Source: a bacterium UBA4637 (GTDB taxonomy: Bacteria; Bacteroidota; Bacteroidia; Bacteroidales; Bacteroidaceae). From it: a stretch of 7,412 nt of DNA. Positions 1 to 7,297 of this stretch are shown here, piece by piece (within the stretch, counting starts at the first letter, position 1; every line of letters starts with the position of its first letter). The notes beneath the pieces were generated by a model. It was given only the letters and a program-made list of their open reading frames with translations. It made no database searches and was not told where the DNA came from. Position numbers and translations under genes: made by a program. The stretch spans positions 1 to 7,412 of the forward strand of contig DHMR01000054.1 in the NCBI GenBank assembly GCA_002405875.1. Direction: 5' to 3'.

Positions 1-1742
1 GGAATAGAAGAATAAGTGGATGGATAATAATACTTAGACTGATTGTAGAGCACCAATCCGCCAATATGATGCAAACCGAAATTGCGATTATAGTTCAAAC
101 TGGTCTCGAAATACCAGTTACGGCCTTTACCAAAGCCCTCACTATATCCCAATTGAGTATCACTACCATTCTTGCGATATTCCACTGTTCCATCAGGTTG
201 CATTACAGGAGTATAATAAGCAGCTGATGCGCCACGCTGCTTAGTAACACTATAACTACTGTTATAAGAGCCTTTCAACTTGAATGACAATCCTTTGGTT
301 ATCATATCGAGCTTTTGGTTCAACACAACATCGGCATTCAGTGTATTGGTATTCTTTGACATATATCCCTTGCCATAATAAGAGTCAAGACCTGTTGCTC
401 CCAAGAACGGCATATTGTCACAATCATTATAATCAGTACCAGCCTTTAAGAACTTACCATTGATGACACCTGGACTAGAGAATGGAGTTGCCCAATACAA
501 CTTACGGAACAACTGATTGTTATCCTCACCTGAGTAAGGAGTGTTCTTTGTATCCACACGACCACCGAGATTTACGCTAATCGTTGTGGTCTTGGTAACA
601 TTAAAGTCTAAGTTCGCACGATAGTTGAATCGCTGATACTTAAAATTGAAGTCGTATGGCAAAGACTGCTGTTTGAAGAGACCATCCTGTGTAAAGGCAC
701 CTACAGACACGAAGTAGCGCATACGGTCTGTACCACCAGAAATATTCACATTGTGCTGTGTCTGGATGGCATGGTTCTTGAAGCAATAATCTATCCAATC
801 TGTATCAGGGAAACGAAGAGGATCGGAATGATCCTTAAATTTCTGAAGAATCTGATCAGAAAATGGAGCAGCTGCCGCACCATCGTTCAACTTCTGCATA
901 TTATAATAGGTGGCATACTCATAAGCATTAGCCAATTCGACAGTTTGAGTTGGTACGATAACACTCATAGAGGTTGTAGCCGAAATCTTTGCCTTTCCTT
1001 CCTTACCACGCTTGGTAGTAACGAGGATAACACCATTGGCACCACGCACACCAAATACGGCTGTAGCCGAAGCATCCTTCAACACGGTTATGCTCTCGAT
1101 TTCGCTAGGGTCGATATCGTTGAAGTCTCGCTCCACACCATCCACCTGAATCAAAGGGGCTGAATTGTTGGTGGTAGCCTGACCACGTACCAAGATAGTT
1201 GCCGCATCAGCTCCTGGCTCACCAGAATACTGTACGGAAGAAAGACCTGGAACAACACCAGAAAGCATGTTGTTGATGGAACCGGTTGGAACCTTCGTCA
1301 ACTCGCTACCATTGATGTTAGAGATGGCACCTGTCACGGTTACCTTCTTCTGTACACCATAAGCAACCACCTGTACATCTTTTAATACTTGAGAATCATC
1401 CTCAAGTACTACATTGATGGCACCACGAGACACTTTCACAGTCTTTGGCTTGCAACCAACATAGGTTACCTGCAAACTCTGACCACTCTTGGCATTCAAG
1501 CTGAATTTACCATCGAAGTCGGTAACTGTTGCAATTTTAGTACCAACAACTCGGACTGTTGCACCAATGATAGGCTCACCATTCGTGTCCTTTACCACTC
1601 CTTCCACCTGGCCATTCTGCTGCACAGCCTGTATACTGTTCTGTACAGCCAACAACTCCTGTGGCAACAATGTCAACCCTGCTGACATTGCCATCATGAA
1701 AAATAGACTTCGTGACGAAGTTTTTAGATTTACATTTTTCAT
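1..1742 (-). CDS. SusC-like TonB-dependent outer membrane transporter (N-terminal ~580 residues, 3' end outside window)
   Basis: Outer-membrane porin that imports glycan oligosaccharides with a SusD lipoprotein lid, energised by TonB. I translated the minus strand from the ATG at 1742-1740; it stays open to the window edge, giving about 580 codons of a family that is usually about 1000-1100 residues. Residues 1 to ~33 look like a signal peptide (basic MKNVNLK, then a hydrophobic stretch). Residues ~45-115 form the CarboxypepD_reg-like beta-sandwich typical of SusC (VEGVVKDTNGEPIIGATV). A TonB-box-like stretch DVQVVAYG lies at ~122-129, followed by the plug domain (~133-246), which carries the family signature LKDASATAVFGVRGANG at 221-237. 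The barrel begins after ~255, and the last visible residues (KYYYPSTYSSIP) match a conserved barrel stretch. It lies 138 bp downstream of the GH16 gene on the same strand and has its own promoter-like site. No susD is visible; one would be expected beyond base 1. The ligand cannot be read from this part. Confidence 0.95.
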   Translation of the reverse strand, partial: MKNVNLKTSSRSLFFMMAMSAGLTLLPQELLAVQNSIQAVQQNGQVEGVVKDTNGEPIIGATVRVVGTKIATVTDFDGKFSLNAKSGQSLQVTYVGCKPKTVKVSRGAINVVLEDDSQVLKDVQVVAYGVQKKVTVTGAISNINGSELTKVPTGSINNMLSGVVPGLSSVQYSGEPGADAATILVRGQATTNNSAPLIQVDGVERDFNDIDPSEIESITVLKDASATAVFGVRGANGVILVTTKRGKEGKAKISATTSMSVIVPTQTVELANAYEYATYYNMQKLNDGAAAAPFSDQILQKFKDHSDPLRFPDTDWIDYCFKNHAIQTQHNVNISGGTDRMRYFVSVGAFTQDGLFKQQSLPYDFNFKYQRFNYRANLDFNVTKTTTISVNLGGRVDTKNTPYSGEDNNQLFRKLYWATPFSSPGVINGKFLKAGTDYNDCDNMPFLGATGLDSYYGKGYMSKNTNTLNADVVLNQKLDMITKGLSFKLKGSYNSSYSVTKQRGASAAYYTPVMQPDGTVEYRKNGSDTQLGYSEGFGKGRNWYFETSLNYNRNFGLHHIGGLVLYNQSKYYYPSTYSSI

Positions 1743-1880: not shown

Positions 1881-2708
1881 TTAATTTTTCTTATAAACAC
1901 GGACATAATCTATGTCATAGCACACAGGCAATGAACTCATATCCACCTCTCCGCCATTATCTCCTCCCATGGCAAGATTGAGCAAAATGTATTGAGGTGT
2001 CCGAAATGGACTCTTATAATCGCCTAATTTCTGATTGCGAGTATCATCGACATTCACCTTATTCAATAGTTCATCATCTAGATAGATACTTATTTCTTTC
2101 TCATCCCAGTCCATACGCCAAACATGAAATTTGTCGCAGAAATAAGGATCTTTCTCCAAGAAATGAGAATAAGGGATAGCCTGAGACTTCCAAGCCGCAT
2201 TCCATCGCTGATTAGTACCATACGCAAAGTTTGCCAAGATATGAGGAATCCCTTGCTTGTGATAAAACTCCATCACGTCTATCTCACCACCAGATGGCCA
2301 CTCCCAAGTGCTGCCAAGCAACCAAATTGCCGGCCATGCGCCTTTACTATAAGGTATTCTAGCTCGAACCTCCATCCTGCCATAGAGAAACTCAAACTTT
2401 CCTCGGGTATTGATACTCGAAGAGGTACATTCTAGCTTTTTGCCTTCAACTATTCTGCTACCATCTTCAGGACGTGCAGTGATAGTAAGGATGCCATCGT
2501 GTATTCGTGCATTGTCTTTTTGATAATACTGCCACTCATGATTTCGCTTGTAACCTTCCTCAAACTGCCATTTCGTGGTATCGGGGGTATCACCATGGTC
2601 GAATTCATCATTCCATACCAAGTGATACCCCTCCACTACCTGTGCTTGAAGATTTTGGAGCGAAGCCAAACTTAACAAACCTAATAAACCTAAAATTTTA
2701 TATCTCAT
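1881..2708 (-). CDS. Secreted glycoside hydrolase family 16 beta-glucanase (laminarinase/mixed-linkage glucanase type)
   Basis: A 275-residue single-domain GH16 enzyme, a retaining endo-hydrolase of beta-glucans. Residues 1-22 are a signal peptide ending in LQA before Q23. There is no lipobox cysteine, so a soluble periplasmic or secreted protein is more likely than a surface lipoprotein. The catalytic motif GEIDVMEF gives E142 as nucleophile, D144 as helper and E147 as acid/base. The extra residue (ExDxxE, beta-bulge form) is typical of laminarinase-like GH16 and differs from the ExDxE of Bacillus lichenases. Other family landmarks are LVWNDEFD (30-37), AWPAIWLLG (124-132), FHVWRMDWD (194-202), YILLNLAMGGD (240-250) and the terminal DYVRVY (267-272). 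The length is normal for a catalytic domain without a carbohydrate-binding module. It is transcribed divergently from the HTCS and lies upstream of susC, so it is probably part of the same induced unit. The likely substrate is beta-1,3- or beta-1,3-1,4-glucan; other GH16 specificities such as agarans or carrageenans fit the motif less well but are not excluded. Confidence 0.93.
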   Translation of the reverse strand: MRYKILGLLGLLSLASLQNLQAQVVEGYHLVWNDEFDHGDTPDTTKWQFEEGYKRNHEWQYYQKDNARIHDGILTITARPEDGSRIVEGKKLECTSSSINTRGKFEFLYGRMEVRARIPYSKGAWPAIWLLGSTWEWPSGGEIDVMEFYHKQGIPHILANFAYGTNQRWNAAWKSQAIPYSHFLEKDPYFCDKFHVWRMDWDEKEISIYLDDELLNKVNVDDTRNQKLGDYKSPFRTPQYILLNLAMGGDNGGEVDMSSLPVCYDIDYVRVYKKN

Positions 2709-2897: not shown

Positions 2898-3416
2898 ATG
2901 AAGAATCTCTACAGATATATCCTTATCGTTTTTGCATGCCTCGCCACAACAGCGAAGGCACAGGATTTTCCTTATCGTTATCTTCCACCCATCACCATTG
3001 CACCTACAGAAGAGGCGAACTGCATGTTCTTCGACAAAGAAGGAATGATGTGGGTAGGCACCAACGCAGGTGTGAAATCCTATGATGGTTATCAAGTGAA
3101 GACCTATAGGGCAAGTGCCTACCAACCTGGCATTCTGCCTAACAACACGATACGTTCCATAGCAGAAGACCATAACAACAACTTATGGCTAGGTACCCGA
3201 AACGGACTGGTAAGAATGAATAAACGCACTGGCGAATTCAAGACCTATTTCATGCCAGAAGAATCACAACGTATCATCTACATGCTTTTCGTAAGTAAAG
3301 ACGGTACGCTTTGGATAGGAACAGATGGAGGCCTCTCCATTTTCAATGCTAAGACGGAAACATTCTATACCTATAATAGCAAGAACAGCTGTCTTATAGA
3401 TGAATGGGGGGGGTAA
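2898..3416 (+). CDS. HTCS sensor/regulator, N-terminal fragment (signal peptide and first propeller blades), cut off by a frameshift
   Basis: This 172-residue fragment starts at the ATG at 2898, chosen because MKNLYRYILIVFACLATTAKAQ is a good signal peptide (cleavage after AKA, residue 21) and because the promoter box lies at 2851-2858. An in-frame ATG at 2829 would place 23 unlikely residues before the signal. After export the fragment carries three Reg_prop beta-propeller repeats: MMWVGTNAGVKSYDG (~50-64), NLWLGTRNGLVRM (~95-107) and TLWIGTDGGLSIF (~137-149). Reading then enters the run of eight G and stops at TAA 3414-3416. Removing one G joins this frame to the 3400-7035 frame as ...DEWGG-KNPMYNYS..., giving a 1378-residue HTCS of normal length. 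Alone, the fragment would be a useless partial propeller exported to the periplasm. The alternatives are phase variation, a sequencing or assembly error, and a true pseudogene. Confidence 0.85.
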   Translation: MKNLYRYILIVFACLATTAKAQDFPYRYLPPITIAPTEEANCMFFDKEGMMWVGTNAGVKSYDGYQVKTYRASAYQPGILPNNTIRSIAEDHNNNLWLGTRNGLVRMNKRTGEFKTYFMPEESQRIIYMLFVSKDGTLWIGTDGGLSIFNAKTETFYTYNSKNSCLIDEWGG

Positions 3417-6400
3417 AAATCCAATGTACAATTATAGCGTGAAAGCCATCGTGGAAGACGTGAACGGCGATTTGATAATAGGAACATGGGCAGCAGGTCT
3501 CTTGCGCTTACATCGAGGAACCCACACCTTCTATCGTTATCCCAAACTCAACGCCACCAACTCGGCCTACTCTCTTTATCTTGACAATCGTCAACGCCTG
3601 TGGATTGGCACTTGGGGCTACGGTATCATCAGAATGGATAATCCTCAAAACATCAGGCATCCTAAGATACACCAATATCCATACACTACCAGCCATTTCG
3701 ACACCTACTATAAGATTGTACATGACCCTGTGACCAAGTGTCTCTGGGCATGTACACGAGAAGGCGTGTGCTATCTTGACGAAGATACGCCAAACTCAGA
3801 ATGGAAAAGCTACACTAACATTGGGGGCAACTGGCTCAACTTCAACAATGACATCGCCACAGACGGCTATGGCAACATTTGGCTATGCACCCAAAACAAT
3901 GGCATATTGCAAGTAAACACCCAACCATCGGCATTCAAGCTATGGGAACTGGACACCAGCCACACTCGTCTCACCATTAACTACATATACTCCATTTTCA
4001 CTACAGATGGAGAAAACTTTTGGCTAGGACTGAACCCATACGGCATCGCCCTATACAACAGGAGGACAGGCAGCACCCTATTCAATCAAGAGATTCCCGG
4101 GTTTGCCGACATTCCTGCAAGAGTGCTAACTACTAGTATATCAAGCATAACCCGAAGAAGCAACGGGGAAACCTGGTTTGCCACCAATAGTTATGGAGTC
4201 ATCGTAAAGCCTGTGGGGAAACCAGCCTACCAGCTTAAACACGAAACCCACCCAACGGTTATCAAAGAAGACTTTGTTAACACTACCTTTGAGTCAAGAG
4301 ACAAGACGATGTGGATTGGGCATCGTAACGGTCTGAGTACCATAGATGCCAACAACCATAGCTCAATCATCACATTGAAGGAAGGCAAGCAAGACTACAG
4401 CAACTGCGACATCCGCCATATCTCACAAGACAAAGAAGGCAACATCTGGCTTGCCACCGACAACGAAGGCATCATTCGTGTATCTGGCAACCCTCTAAAC
4501 AACAAGGCTTTGAGATACAAGCAATACAACCCAACGCACCACAATTTCTCAATAAACGATGCTACTGCCTGTATGGAGGATTACGAGGGCAGACTCTGGG
4601 CTATCTCCAATAGTGGTGGTCTCTTTTTATATAATAAGGAGAACGACAGCTTTGAACCGAAAAATCGGGAATACCACTTGCCTGGCGACCGAGTCCACGC
4701 CATCACGGAAGATGATTTAGGAGGTCTTTGGCTCACCACCGACTACGCTCTCGTCCACATCATCATGGAGAAGAACAACGACAAGCCACAAGACATCAGC
4801 TACTTTACAAGTGAAGACGGACTCGGCGACGTGCTTTTCTCTCCCAACACAACATGTAAACATGGCAAAGAGATTTTCTTCGGAAGCCGCACTAGCATCT
4901 TCTCTTTTATACCTTCTCAGGAATCAGGAAAGAGCAAGAAGAAAAGATCCAACCTAGTGATTACAGATGTGATTGTGGACGACCAGCCTTTCTCGCAACT
5001 CGACTCAGCCGACAAAGAAGACATATCGAAAGAAATGCCCAACTATACACGTCAGCTCACGATACCTGCCAAAGTGAAGAAATTCGTCGTAGAGTTCGCT
5101 CTTCTCACCTACGGCAACACTGAGAAAAACGTATATGCCTACATGTTGGAAGGATATGATGACGATTGGCAATACTGCAATGGGGGAATACACAAAGCCT
5201 CTTTCCAAAACCTGCCTTCTGGCAACTACACTTTGCGTATCAAGGCGAATGACGGCTACGGGCATTGGCAGGATTTACCCTACACCATCACCATCAAGGT
5301 CTTGCCGCCATGGTATGCCTCCCGCACCTTCTATATGCTCTACATTCTAATGTTCATAGGCGGAATCTTTGCCACTGCCAGATGGTACAAAGACCATCTG
5401 AAGACGAAGAACAGCTTGCAGATGGGCGTTATCCTCACCAACATCACCCACGAGCTGCTCACGCCGCTCACAGTCATATCCGCCACCATCTACAAGCTCA
5501 AGGAGATGGCACCACAATACGAGGGAGACTACCAAGTGATGGACAGCAACATCAGCCGCACCACCCGACTCCTGCGACAAATTCTGGAAGTGAGAAAGTC
5601 GCAGGCAGGACAACTGCGACTGCTCGTAAGTAAAAACGACATAATTTCTTTTGTGGAGAAAGCCGTAGAAAACATACGTCCGATGGCTGAACACCAGCGC
5701 ATCACATTGAGCCTCGAAAAGCCAACAAGAGGGGATGGACAGGCTTGGTTCGACAACGACAAACTAGACAAAATTCTCTACAACTTGCTCTCCAACGCCA
5801 TCAAATATAATAAAGCTGGAGGCAAGATTGACGTGAAGCTCAGCCTCAACAAGGAGCAAGCCGTCATCAGCATCGCAGACAACGGCATCGGCATGTCGAA
5901 AGACAAGCTAAAACATCTCTACACCCGCTTCTTCGATGGCGACTACCGCAAGCAAAAGCAACCAGGCACAGGCATCGGTCTTTCCTTGACCCACGACCTC
6001 GTGAAACTGCACCGTGGCAACATCCTCTGTGAGAGCACCGAGGGAGAAGGTACTACATTCATCGTAACCATCCCCGTCAAGAAGAGTTCTTACGCCCCAC
6101 AAGAGATAGACCAATCGGGCAAGAGCAAAGCTGTGGATTTAGAGGTTATCCAATCTACAGCACCAACAAACAAGCTTGTGCCACTAGAAGATGAGAAGGA
6201 GAAAACGAATCTCACTCCTTTACACCAGAGCATCTTCATCAGGAAGAACGTGAGCAAGATTCTAGTGGTGGAAGACAACGAAGAACTCTTGGCGCTGATG
6301 CTGCAAGTATTAAGCAAGAACTATCATGTGTTTACCGCCAAGAACGGCAAGCAAGCCTTGAACGTCATCATGAAGGAGCAACTCGACCTTGTAGTGAGCG

Positions 6401-7035
6401 ACGTGATGATGCCTGTGATGGACGGCATCGAACTGACCCAGCGAATCAAGGGCGACAAGAGCTTCTGGCAGTTGCCTGTCATCCTGCTCACCGCCAAGAA
6501 CAAGGACGAGGACAAGACCGATGCTTACAGCATCGGGGCGGATGCCTACATCACCAAGCCATTCAAGTTTGAGGAACTGGAGGTTCGCATCAACGCCCTG
6601 CTCGCAAACCGAAAGCGCATCATAGAGAAGATTGAAAACGAAGTGTCGCTCTCCACCAACACAAGAGACGAAAACGATGTGGATGCACACCTCAGCAACC
6701 CGGACCAAGCATTCATCACTCGTGCCACTGAGATGGTGATGCAGCATCTCGACGACTCGGAGTACAACCGCAAGTCGTTTGCCAAGGATATGGCGATGGG
6801 TGAATCTACCCTATATAATAAGGTGAAAGCAACCACTGGGCAGACGGTAGTAGAATTTATCACCGCCATCCGAATGAAGGAAGCCCAGCGCATGATGCAA
6901 GCGGACCCTAACATATTGATAAGCGAAGTGGCGACGAGAGTAGGCTTCAACACACCGAAGTATTTCTCGAAGTGCTTCAAGAAGGAATTCGGAATTTATC
7001 CTAGGGAATATGCAGAAAAGCTAAAGAACTCTTGA
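3400..7035 (+). CDS. HTCS sensor/regulator, main part: propellers, Y_Y_Y, transmembrane segment, histidine kinase, receiver, AraC-type DNA-binding domain
   Basis: Hybrid two-component regulator of PULs that senses glycan oligosaccharides in the periplasm and activates transcription. Residues here count from the ATG at 3400; add 167 for the repaired protein. About eleven more Reg_prop blades occupy 1 to ~510 (e.g. RLWIGTWGYGIIRM, NIWLATDNEGIIRV), so the total of about 14 fits two seven-bladed propellers. The Y_Y_Y domain is at ~553-637, and a single transmembrane helix at ~643-663. The DHp domain has phospho-acceptor H684 in THELLTPLT. The ATPase domain (~778-895) has N799, the G1 box DNGIGM (D827) and GTGIGL (from G856). 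The receiver (~953-1070) has E958/D959, phospho-acceptor D1001 in VVSDVMMP and K1053. The AraC-type HTH runs from ~1106 to the end. All catalytic residues are intact, so only the poly-G frame break disables it. The ATG at 3400 lies within the upstream reading frame, and this fragment alone has no signal peptide, so independent function as a sensor is unlikely. Divergent from GH16-susC, its probable targets. Confidence 0.93.
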   Translation: MNGGGKNPMYNYSVKAIVEDVNGDLIIGTWAAGLLRLHRGTHTFYRYPKLNATNSAYSLYLDNRQRLWIGTWGYGIIRMDNPQNIRHPKIHQYPYTTSHFDTYYKIVHDPVTKCLWACTREGVCYLDEDTPNSEWKSYTNIGGNWLNFNNDIATDGYGNIWLCTQNNGILQVNTQPSAFKLWELDTSHTRLTINYIYSIFTTDGENFWLGLNPYGIALYNRRTGSTLFNQEIPGFADIPARVLTTSISSITRRSNGETWFATNSYGVIVKPVGKPAYQLKHETHPTVIKEDFVNTTFESRDKTMWIGHRNGLSTIDANNHSSIITLKEGKQDYSNCDIRHISQDKEGNIWLATDNEGIIRVSGNPLNNKALRYKQYNPTHHNFSINDATACMEDYEGRLWAISNSGGLFLYNKENDSFEPKNREYHLPGDRVHAITEDDLGGLWLTTDYALVHIIMEKNNDKPQDISYFTSEDGLGDVLFSPNTTCKHGKEIFFGSRTSIFSFIPSQESGKSKKKRSNLVITDVIVDDQPFSQLDSADKEDISKEMPNYTRQLTIPAKVKKFVVEFALLTYGNTEKNVYAYMLEGYDDDWQYCNGGIHKASFQNLPSGNYTLRIKANDGYGHWQDLPYTITIKVLPPWYASRTFYMLYILMFIGGIFATARWYKDHLKTKNSLQMGVILTNITHELLTPLTVISATIYKLKEMAPQYEGDYQVMDSNISRTTRLLRQILEVRKSQAGQLRLLVSKNDIISFVEKAVENIRPMAEHQRITLSLEKPTRGDGQAWFDNDKLDKILYNLLSNAIKYNKAGGKIDVKLSLNKEQAVISIADNGIGMSKDKLKHLYTRFFDGDYRKQKQPGTGIGLSLTHDLVKLHRGNILCESTEGEGTTFIVTIPVKKSSYAPQEIDQSGKSKAVDLEVIQSTAPTNKLVPLEDEKEKTNLTPLHQSIFIRKNVSKILVVEDNEELLALMLQVLSKNYHVFTAKNGKQALNVIMKEQLDLVVSDVMMPVMDGIELTQRIKGDKSFWQLPVILLTAKNKDEDKTDAYSIGADAYITKPFKFEELEVRINALLANRKRIIEKIENEVSLSTNTRDENDVDAHLSNPDQAFITRATEMVMQHLDDSEYNRKSFAKDMAMGESTLYNKVKATTGQTVVEFITAIRMKEAQRMMQADPNILISEVATRVGFNTPKYFSKCFKKEFGIYPREYAEKLKNS
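3406..3413 (+). repeat. Run of eight G at the HTCS frame break
   Basis: Eight consecutive G follow TGAAT at 3401-3405 and precede TAAAAATCC. Read from 2898, the frame is TGG GGG GGG TAA. With seven G it becomes TGG GGG GGT AAA and continues into the 3400-7035 frame without another stop. The run lies in the linker between propeller blades 3 and 4, where two glycines are tolerable. G runs of this length are known slippage sites in bacterial phase-variable genes and also known sites of sequencing error. Confidence 0.9.
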
Positions 7036-7049
7036 ACGAAAAACTAAAG

Positions 7050-7297
7050 TTTCTCTTTTCTATTACACACTACACCCAACAGTATGTAAACCACTAACAG
7101 ACAGGTTGTTAAACGAGTGTAGTGTCGTAACCAACACTGCACCCACACTACACCACATTACACCTGTCGTTTTCATACAAGGGTGTAATGTAGTGTAGTG
7201 TGGGTGTAATGTCCGCGAGCACACTACACCCTTCTAAACCATCTATGGTTCAACATGTTACGTATGGCAGGGTGTAGTGGGTAATAGAAAACAGAAA
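7050..7297. repeat. 248-bp nested palindrome built from ACAYTACACC units
   Basis: Three sets of arms nest around one centre. Outer: 7050-7077 pairs with 7270-7297 (28 bp, two mismatches). Middle: 7115-7125 pairs with 7221-7231 (nine perfect central pairs). Inner: 7134-7164 pairs with 7182-7212 (31 positions, about three mismatches, one G-T), leaving a ~17-nt loop. Between outer and middle arms, 7082-7089 can also pair with 7258-7265, two of the pairs being G-T. About nine copies of a 10-mer make up the arms: ACACTACACC or ACATTACACC on the plus strand at 7067, 7145, 7155 and 7221, and reverse-complement forms at 7117, 7182, 7192, 7203 and 7271. The element begins 14 bp after the HTCS stop. 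It could be a MITE-like or REP-like element, a structured RNA, a transcription stop or a protein-binding array. I see no clear target-site duplication. Confidence 0.8.

Follow-up and report, generated by a model that had tools for sequence, protein, structure and literature searches.

Is the run of eight G that interrupts the gene of a hybrid two-component regulator (HTCS) in this member of the Bacteroidaceae a dedicated genetic switch, an occasional slip of one base, or a miscount in the consensus sequence? The window, by which we mean the whole stretch of 7,412 nucleotides analysed, places this regulator next to genes of polysaccharide utilization. On the minus strand lie a SusC/TonB-type receptor gene (3..1742), cut by the window edge and carrying plug and carboxypeptidase-regulatory-like domains in Pfam, and a GH16 (glycoside hydrolase family 16) gene (1881..2708), identified from its open reading frame and Pfam. 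Both are divergent from the HTCS, which is on the plus strand, and such neighbors are the genomic context expected of an HTCS. The top solved relatives of the GH16 protein are laminarinases and endo-1,3-beta-glucanases. No SusD gene was seen within the 7,412-base window. PMC11784079 describes how S. copri DSM18205 has an HTCS gene, itself not upregulated, next to its locus for mixed-linkage beta-glucan, which carries a GH5_4 endo-glucanase where B. ovatus has a GH16 enzyme. Rfam gave zero matches in the window at gathering score. On the 3' side of the HTCS, at 7050-7297, we noted nested, long imperfect inverted repeats (40-nucleotide arms around 56-nucleotide arms, 79-83% complementary), with repeats of CACACTACACCC.

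The frame that opens at ATG 2898 closes at a TAA (3414-3416) abutting a run of exactly eight G (3406..3413, plus strand). The resulting N piece (2898..3416, plus strand) is 172 residues long and holds the first propeller repeats, one of which was matched by Pfam; its N terminus reads as signal-like. Past the break, 1,204 codons remain open in a second frame, to position 7035. This C piece (3417..7035, plus strand; its mechanical ORF begins at ATG 3400) contains the rest of the propeller, with repeats matched by Pfam, followed on the same strand by Pfam domains Y_Y_Y (5110..5304), HisKA (5431..5610; with 26.2 bits, 0.7 bits under the cut-off of 26.9), HATPase_c (5752..6081), a Response_reg receiver (6259..6591) and the AraC-type DNA-binding domain HTH_18 (6781..7017). 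We took ATG 2898 as the start of the HTCS because relatives begin there; the mechanical ORF and the intact protein P0001, described below, begin 69 bases upstream, at 2829. As in contingency genes, the G8 is a coding homopolymer whose length sets the frame. It is also the sole run of at least six G, C or A in the window, the other run of this length being an intergenic T7 (1799-1805).

Do the two pieces belong to one gene? The intact protein P0001 (1,401 aa, from ENA) reads through the junction as DEWGGKNPMYNYS and continues across it as LIDEWGGKNPMYNYSVKAIVEDV. It is identical to the window over 172 of 172 residues of the N piece and shares 1,201 of the 1,205 residues after the junction, with 4 differences. 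Since P0001 spans both pieces near-identically, these are parts of a single gene, and the full HTCS domain series that Pfam finds distributed over the two pieces appears in the precomputed domains of P0001 within a single chain. From the P0001 protein we infer, simply, that the intact allele has seven G. No second disabling change was found in the 1,204 codons after the break. The preliminary description, which had seen in this locus a G8 splitting an otherwise intact HTCS unlike a decaying pseudogene, is thus borne out on both counts: the stop directly follows the run, the C-piece domains are open in the other frame, and a near-identical intact allele exists.

The broken form appears to be scarce. 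P0001 heads a protein cluster of 67 member sequences (the full-length form was read for P0001 itself), so that the states observed are one OFF sequence, the window, beside a 67-member intact cluster. No N-terminal half-protein of the window's species occurs among the 75 matches of the N-piece search, where the best alignment of at least 80 aa is P0137, with 89.5% identity over 95 aa, and the rest reach at most 83.3%. Nor does a C-terminal half-protein of the species occur among the best 120 of the 2,466 C-piece matches, in which the next protein listed after P0001 is 77% identical. Fragments are kept apart from full-length clusters in this database: P0130 is a separate entry while 99.3% identical to P0054, and P0046, a C piece from a sister lineage, forms its own cluster even though it matches P0051 with 95.9% identity and has 88% of that protein's length. 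Half-proteins of the window's species therefore seem absent, although gene calling and the choice of database bear on this absence, and the window's own proteins are also missing from the matches listed. Treating the 67 members as independent draws, one would have expected, with 95% probability, to see an OFF share of more than about 4.4%.

Is the tract itself conserved? The motif WGG is found within the first 260 residues in 0 of the 119 other relatives listed (74-77% identical), so the tract is lineage-specific and is not kept in related lineages as a contingency tract would be. At this site the alignment of the sensor propeller is variable, and the common forms among relatives are LIDENGHKQK, LIDENGSRKKMP and LIDVDGSKNRIT. 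The homologue in the related genome G396 has no long run there; P0046 and P0122 had given us the idea of a poly-A run at this site in the sister lineage, which we rejected since G396 reads AGCAGAAAGAAAATG. In the window's genes, GGG accounts for 15 of 159 glycine codons, and a W-G-G with one GGG codon can therefore arise by chance. DNA matches to the HTCS were obtained in 15 of 399 genomes of a family sample and 46 of 398 genomes of a genus sample; those covering most of the query came only from G396 (74%), G439 (66%) and, more weakly, G470 (63%, query 123-1944). A further 299 genomes, apparently from the same draw, gave no new matching genome, and viral contigs held no relative of either gene searched. 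Species-representative genomes (50 loci) were tried as close relatives and set aside: they are no help on the tract because matches over most of the query are at most 28% identical, higher values being confined to short matches.

The sequence beyond the break does not look decayed. Between the window and G396, the dN/dS ratio is 0.03 for the N piece and 0.07 for the remaining sensor, where dS is saturated and these values are therefore a rough sign of constraint only, and 0.16 from the kinase onward. The RNA flanking the tract folds no better than shuffled sequences (z = 1.0; 167 of 200 shuffles at least as stable). Neither a conserved slippery site nor a stimulating structure, the marks of a programmed frameshift, is present.

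Two explanations of the window stand out, a rare slip allele and a consensus error. We favor the former, at about even probability: the window would carry a rare OFF form of an HTCS for polysaccharide utilization, produced by a one-base slip, infrequent in the species and, in principle, able to revert. In the usual gene, the residues W-G-G-K would lie in the variable stretch of the sensor propeller, their codons forming a short G run. This strain would have gained one G, most likely by strand slippage during replication. The stop after residue 172 would then leave no kinase, receiver or DNA-binding part behind the signal peptide and, from what is known of HTCS biology, the GH16/SusC locus would probably not be induced. 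The same slippage can run backwards, and mixed populations are therefore possible. That the two states are maintained as a dedicated switch is possible but unproven.

The strongest competitor, which we regard as distinctly less probable than the slip allele though still a serious contender, is an assembly or base-calling error, whereby the genome would have the intact tract and the eighth G would be a miscount. No homopolymer in the window is longer than the one that contains the indel, every other gene is in frame, as is the remainder of the HTCS, and the intact form is the only other form seen. In the same database, several truncated relatives have, in our interpretation, frame changes at scattered points of the gene or adapter-like tails, so artefacts do occur in assembly-derived proteins; the terminal peptides of two of them, P0123 and P0127, resemble translated sequencing adapters, which we take to be such an artefact. 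Against an error, a G8 in a short-read consensus is usually right, and among the four G5 runs of the window the three within genes (2583, 3823 and 5182) leave the frames unbroken.

A dedicated poly-G contingency switch, in which slippage would toggle the HTCS and its locus in a subpopulation, is in our opinion unlikely. It would fit with the occurrence of both states in near-identical genes, with the position of the tract in a variable stretch, where an extra glycine should be tolerated, and with the finding, presented below, that related genomes carry an apparently poly-G-switched regulator family and other splits at G/C runs. It is at odds with the lack of any other truncated copy among the matches listed, against the 67-member intact cluster, and with a tract missing in 119 of 119 other relatives listed. 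The idea of a phase-variable regulator put forward in the preliminary description thus survives in part: the gene is otherwise intact and has a near-identical intact allele, but a populated ON/OFF switch is not supported by the clusters, the half-protein searches and the relatives. In contrast, the membrane/AraC regulator family described next does have populated truncated clusters, P0199 (544 members) and P0196 (64 members).

This family (L145:755-1934; L154, minus strand; L191:248-1382, minus strand; proteins P0196-P0315) couples a membrane-like protein to an AraC HTH, and a G8 splits three copies of it from two genomes. In L191, from G396, the G8 split is at the same place as in the L145 homologue with different flanks, while a third homologue, L192 from G442, is an intact single frame of 394 aa without a G run. 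A protein search with the N piece of the family gave 5,397 matches out of 7,999 scored candidates, and we read the endings of the 120 matches listed. Most frequent are the YGGA or YGGV forms expected for 7 G (57 of 120). The GGGTFC ending expected for 8 G is found in 4 of 120, namely P0199 (544 members), P0198 (20 members, with three more residues) and two clusters of 1. Three more, P0196 (64 members), P0289 (19) and P0295 (11), read GGGHFLLNSR or GGGQFLLNSR, expected for 9 G, and 6 of 120 read GGGA, expected for 10 G. The remainder comprises CGGAKEKP or CVGGAKEKP forms (9 of 120), proteins with no readable run, mostly of NQRSGEKK types (37 of 120), and 4 others. The states 7, 8 and 9 G occur within one background, ENDALVGTKYRY, and 7, 8 and 10 G within another, ESYALARTKYRY, all tract lengths being deduced from protein. 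Endings of this kind are what a poly-G switch should produce, and the family seems to be a genuinely phase-variable regulator. How far its C piece is constrained is uncertain: comparing L145 with L191 gives a dN/dS of 0.08 at saturated dS, and the two G439 paralogues, differing tails included, give 1.6. One family member, P0239, has the source name Prevotella sp. The host of the window is probably a Prevotella/Segatella-like bacterium.

How common are such tracts in related genomes? At least one G8 is present in 59 of 60 sampled genomes of the related genus to which G396 belongs. We surveyed 100 regions from 13 genomes, chosen around G8 runs and containing 114 G/C runs of at least 8 (the survey leaves out all of G450, most of G426, contig-edge runs of G388 and G396 and a few single runs of G406, G422 and G431; the run on contig C18 of G396 was read separately as L191). 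Twenty-nine of these runs lie in frame inside long open frames and 5 split two long frames; L154, a paralogue of L145, is also split and was missed by the survey thresholds. By the same thresholds, splits are found at 0 of 13 G7, 1 of 24 G6 and 5 of 149 G5 runs, and at 0 of 48 A/T runs of at least 8, 2 of 77 A7 and 4 of 306 A6 runs. Long G/C runs split genes uncommonly (5 of 114), and not at a clearly higher rate than G5 runs, which also weighs against a dedicated switch in the window. Taken alone, these counts do not set long G runs apart, and the evidence for our side finding is therefore how the membrane/AraC proteins end.

The splits, read by eye and with Pfam, are diverse. L145 and L154 join a membrane-like protein to an AraC HTH, as does L236, split at a C9. 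L202 is an acyltransferase 3 with both halves matching PF01757; in L222, a G9/C9-type run separates a protein kinase domain from BspA-type repeats; and in L238 a G9 lies inside a signal-like start, with no Pfam match after the run. L188, considered as another split gene, was rejected and reads as two abutting genes. The region of L201 and L202 (G406:C107:6500-40000) bears eight separate runs of G8 or longer on one strand over about 30 kb, one of them splitting the acyltransferase-3 gene, and is a possible surface-variation locus. A 22-G run inside a contig of a related genome (G450:C40:68299-68320) is either a very long tract or an artefact.

Are other HTCS genes split in this way? Five related genomes contain 31 HTCS matches at E 1e-40 or better among the matches listed, of which 24 have frames of at least 1,260 aa (one with an internal TAA), 5 have frames of 928-973 aa and 2 are shorter. 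No G-run split was found in the loci of 30 of these 31 matches, taking the matched C-terminal part and its flanks and hence part of the sensor regions, and this again argues against a dedicated switch. The two odd loci, L243 and L267, with a short frame or a stop, were read frame by frame and rejected as G-run splits.

That this strain has lost the regulator for good is very improbable: the coding part is cut and the ability to use the substrate may be gone, yet 1,204 codons show no second disabling change, and any loss would therefore be recent. Programmed recoding, in which +1 slippage of the ribosome at the stop or transcriptional slippage on the G8 would yield a full-length protein, as envisaged in the preliminary description, is the least credible reading, since the frame does stay open past the stop but the intact allele P0001 needs no recoding, no relative listed keeps the run, and no stable RNA structure lies nearby.

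Could the HTCS nonetheless be one of several poly-G/poly-C-switched genes in a Prevotella-like clade, where slippage, beside inversion, would set glycan and surface programmes? We consider this wider view doubtful for the HTCS, while slippage at the level of the clade is suggested by the membrane/AraC endings for 7, 8 and 9 G and for 7, 8 and 10 G. If the tract really changes length in populations of living cells, a single base would govern the response of a gut-type bacterium to beta-glucan-like food, and surveys that label such genes as pseudogenes would misread a reversible state. Related genomes seem to use G runs in regulators, which makes the switch idea testable. In titles and the beginnings of abstracts of the papers listed, mostly from non-subscription literature, we recognised no description of poly-G switching in Prevotella, Segatella copri or Bacteroidales/Bacteroidetes. 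As far as their accessible text goes, PMC11388281 (where the slippage term belongs to a Gardnerella reference), PMC12413058, PMC12632263 and PMC2831843 proved irrelevant to tract slippage.

In its domains, the window's gene resembles the propeller-type HTCS of Bacteroidota (solved sensor 4a2l), which likewise combine Reg_prop, Y_Y_Y, kinase, receiver and AraC HTH in one chain and have a SusC-type receptor and a glycoside hydrolase as neighbors; it differs from them by the break after residue 172. With the invertase-driven variation of Bacteroides, presented as inversion-based in the accessible portion of PMC11868660, a text in which Prevotella does not appear, it would share population heterogeneity of glycan-related surface functions, whereas the means is DNA inversion there and homopolymer length here. 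In the membrane/AraC family (L145, L154 and L191) a G8 likewise parts a regulator from its DNA-binding part, with four tract states in near-identical proteins against two for the window's HTCS. The nearest precedent, judging from the part of PMC1891110 available, is bvgS of Bordetella pertussis, in which a C6 tract gives the full-length protein and C7 a truncated one, both lengths being found in one culture. In both cases a single added base in a short homopolymer of the coding sequence truncates a sensor kinase regulator, which silences the targets in the case of bvgS and presumably in that of the window; the Bordetella case is a culture of mixed tract lengths, whereas ours is one OFF sequence, with the intact allele elsewhere, in a glycan regulator of Bacteroidota.
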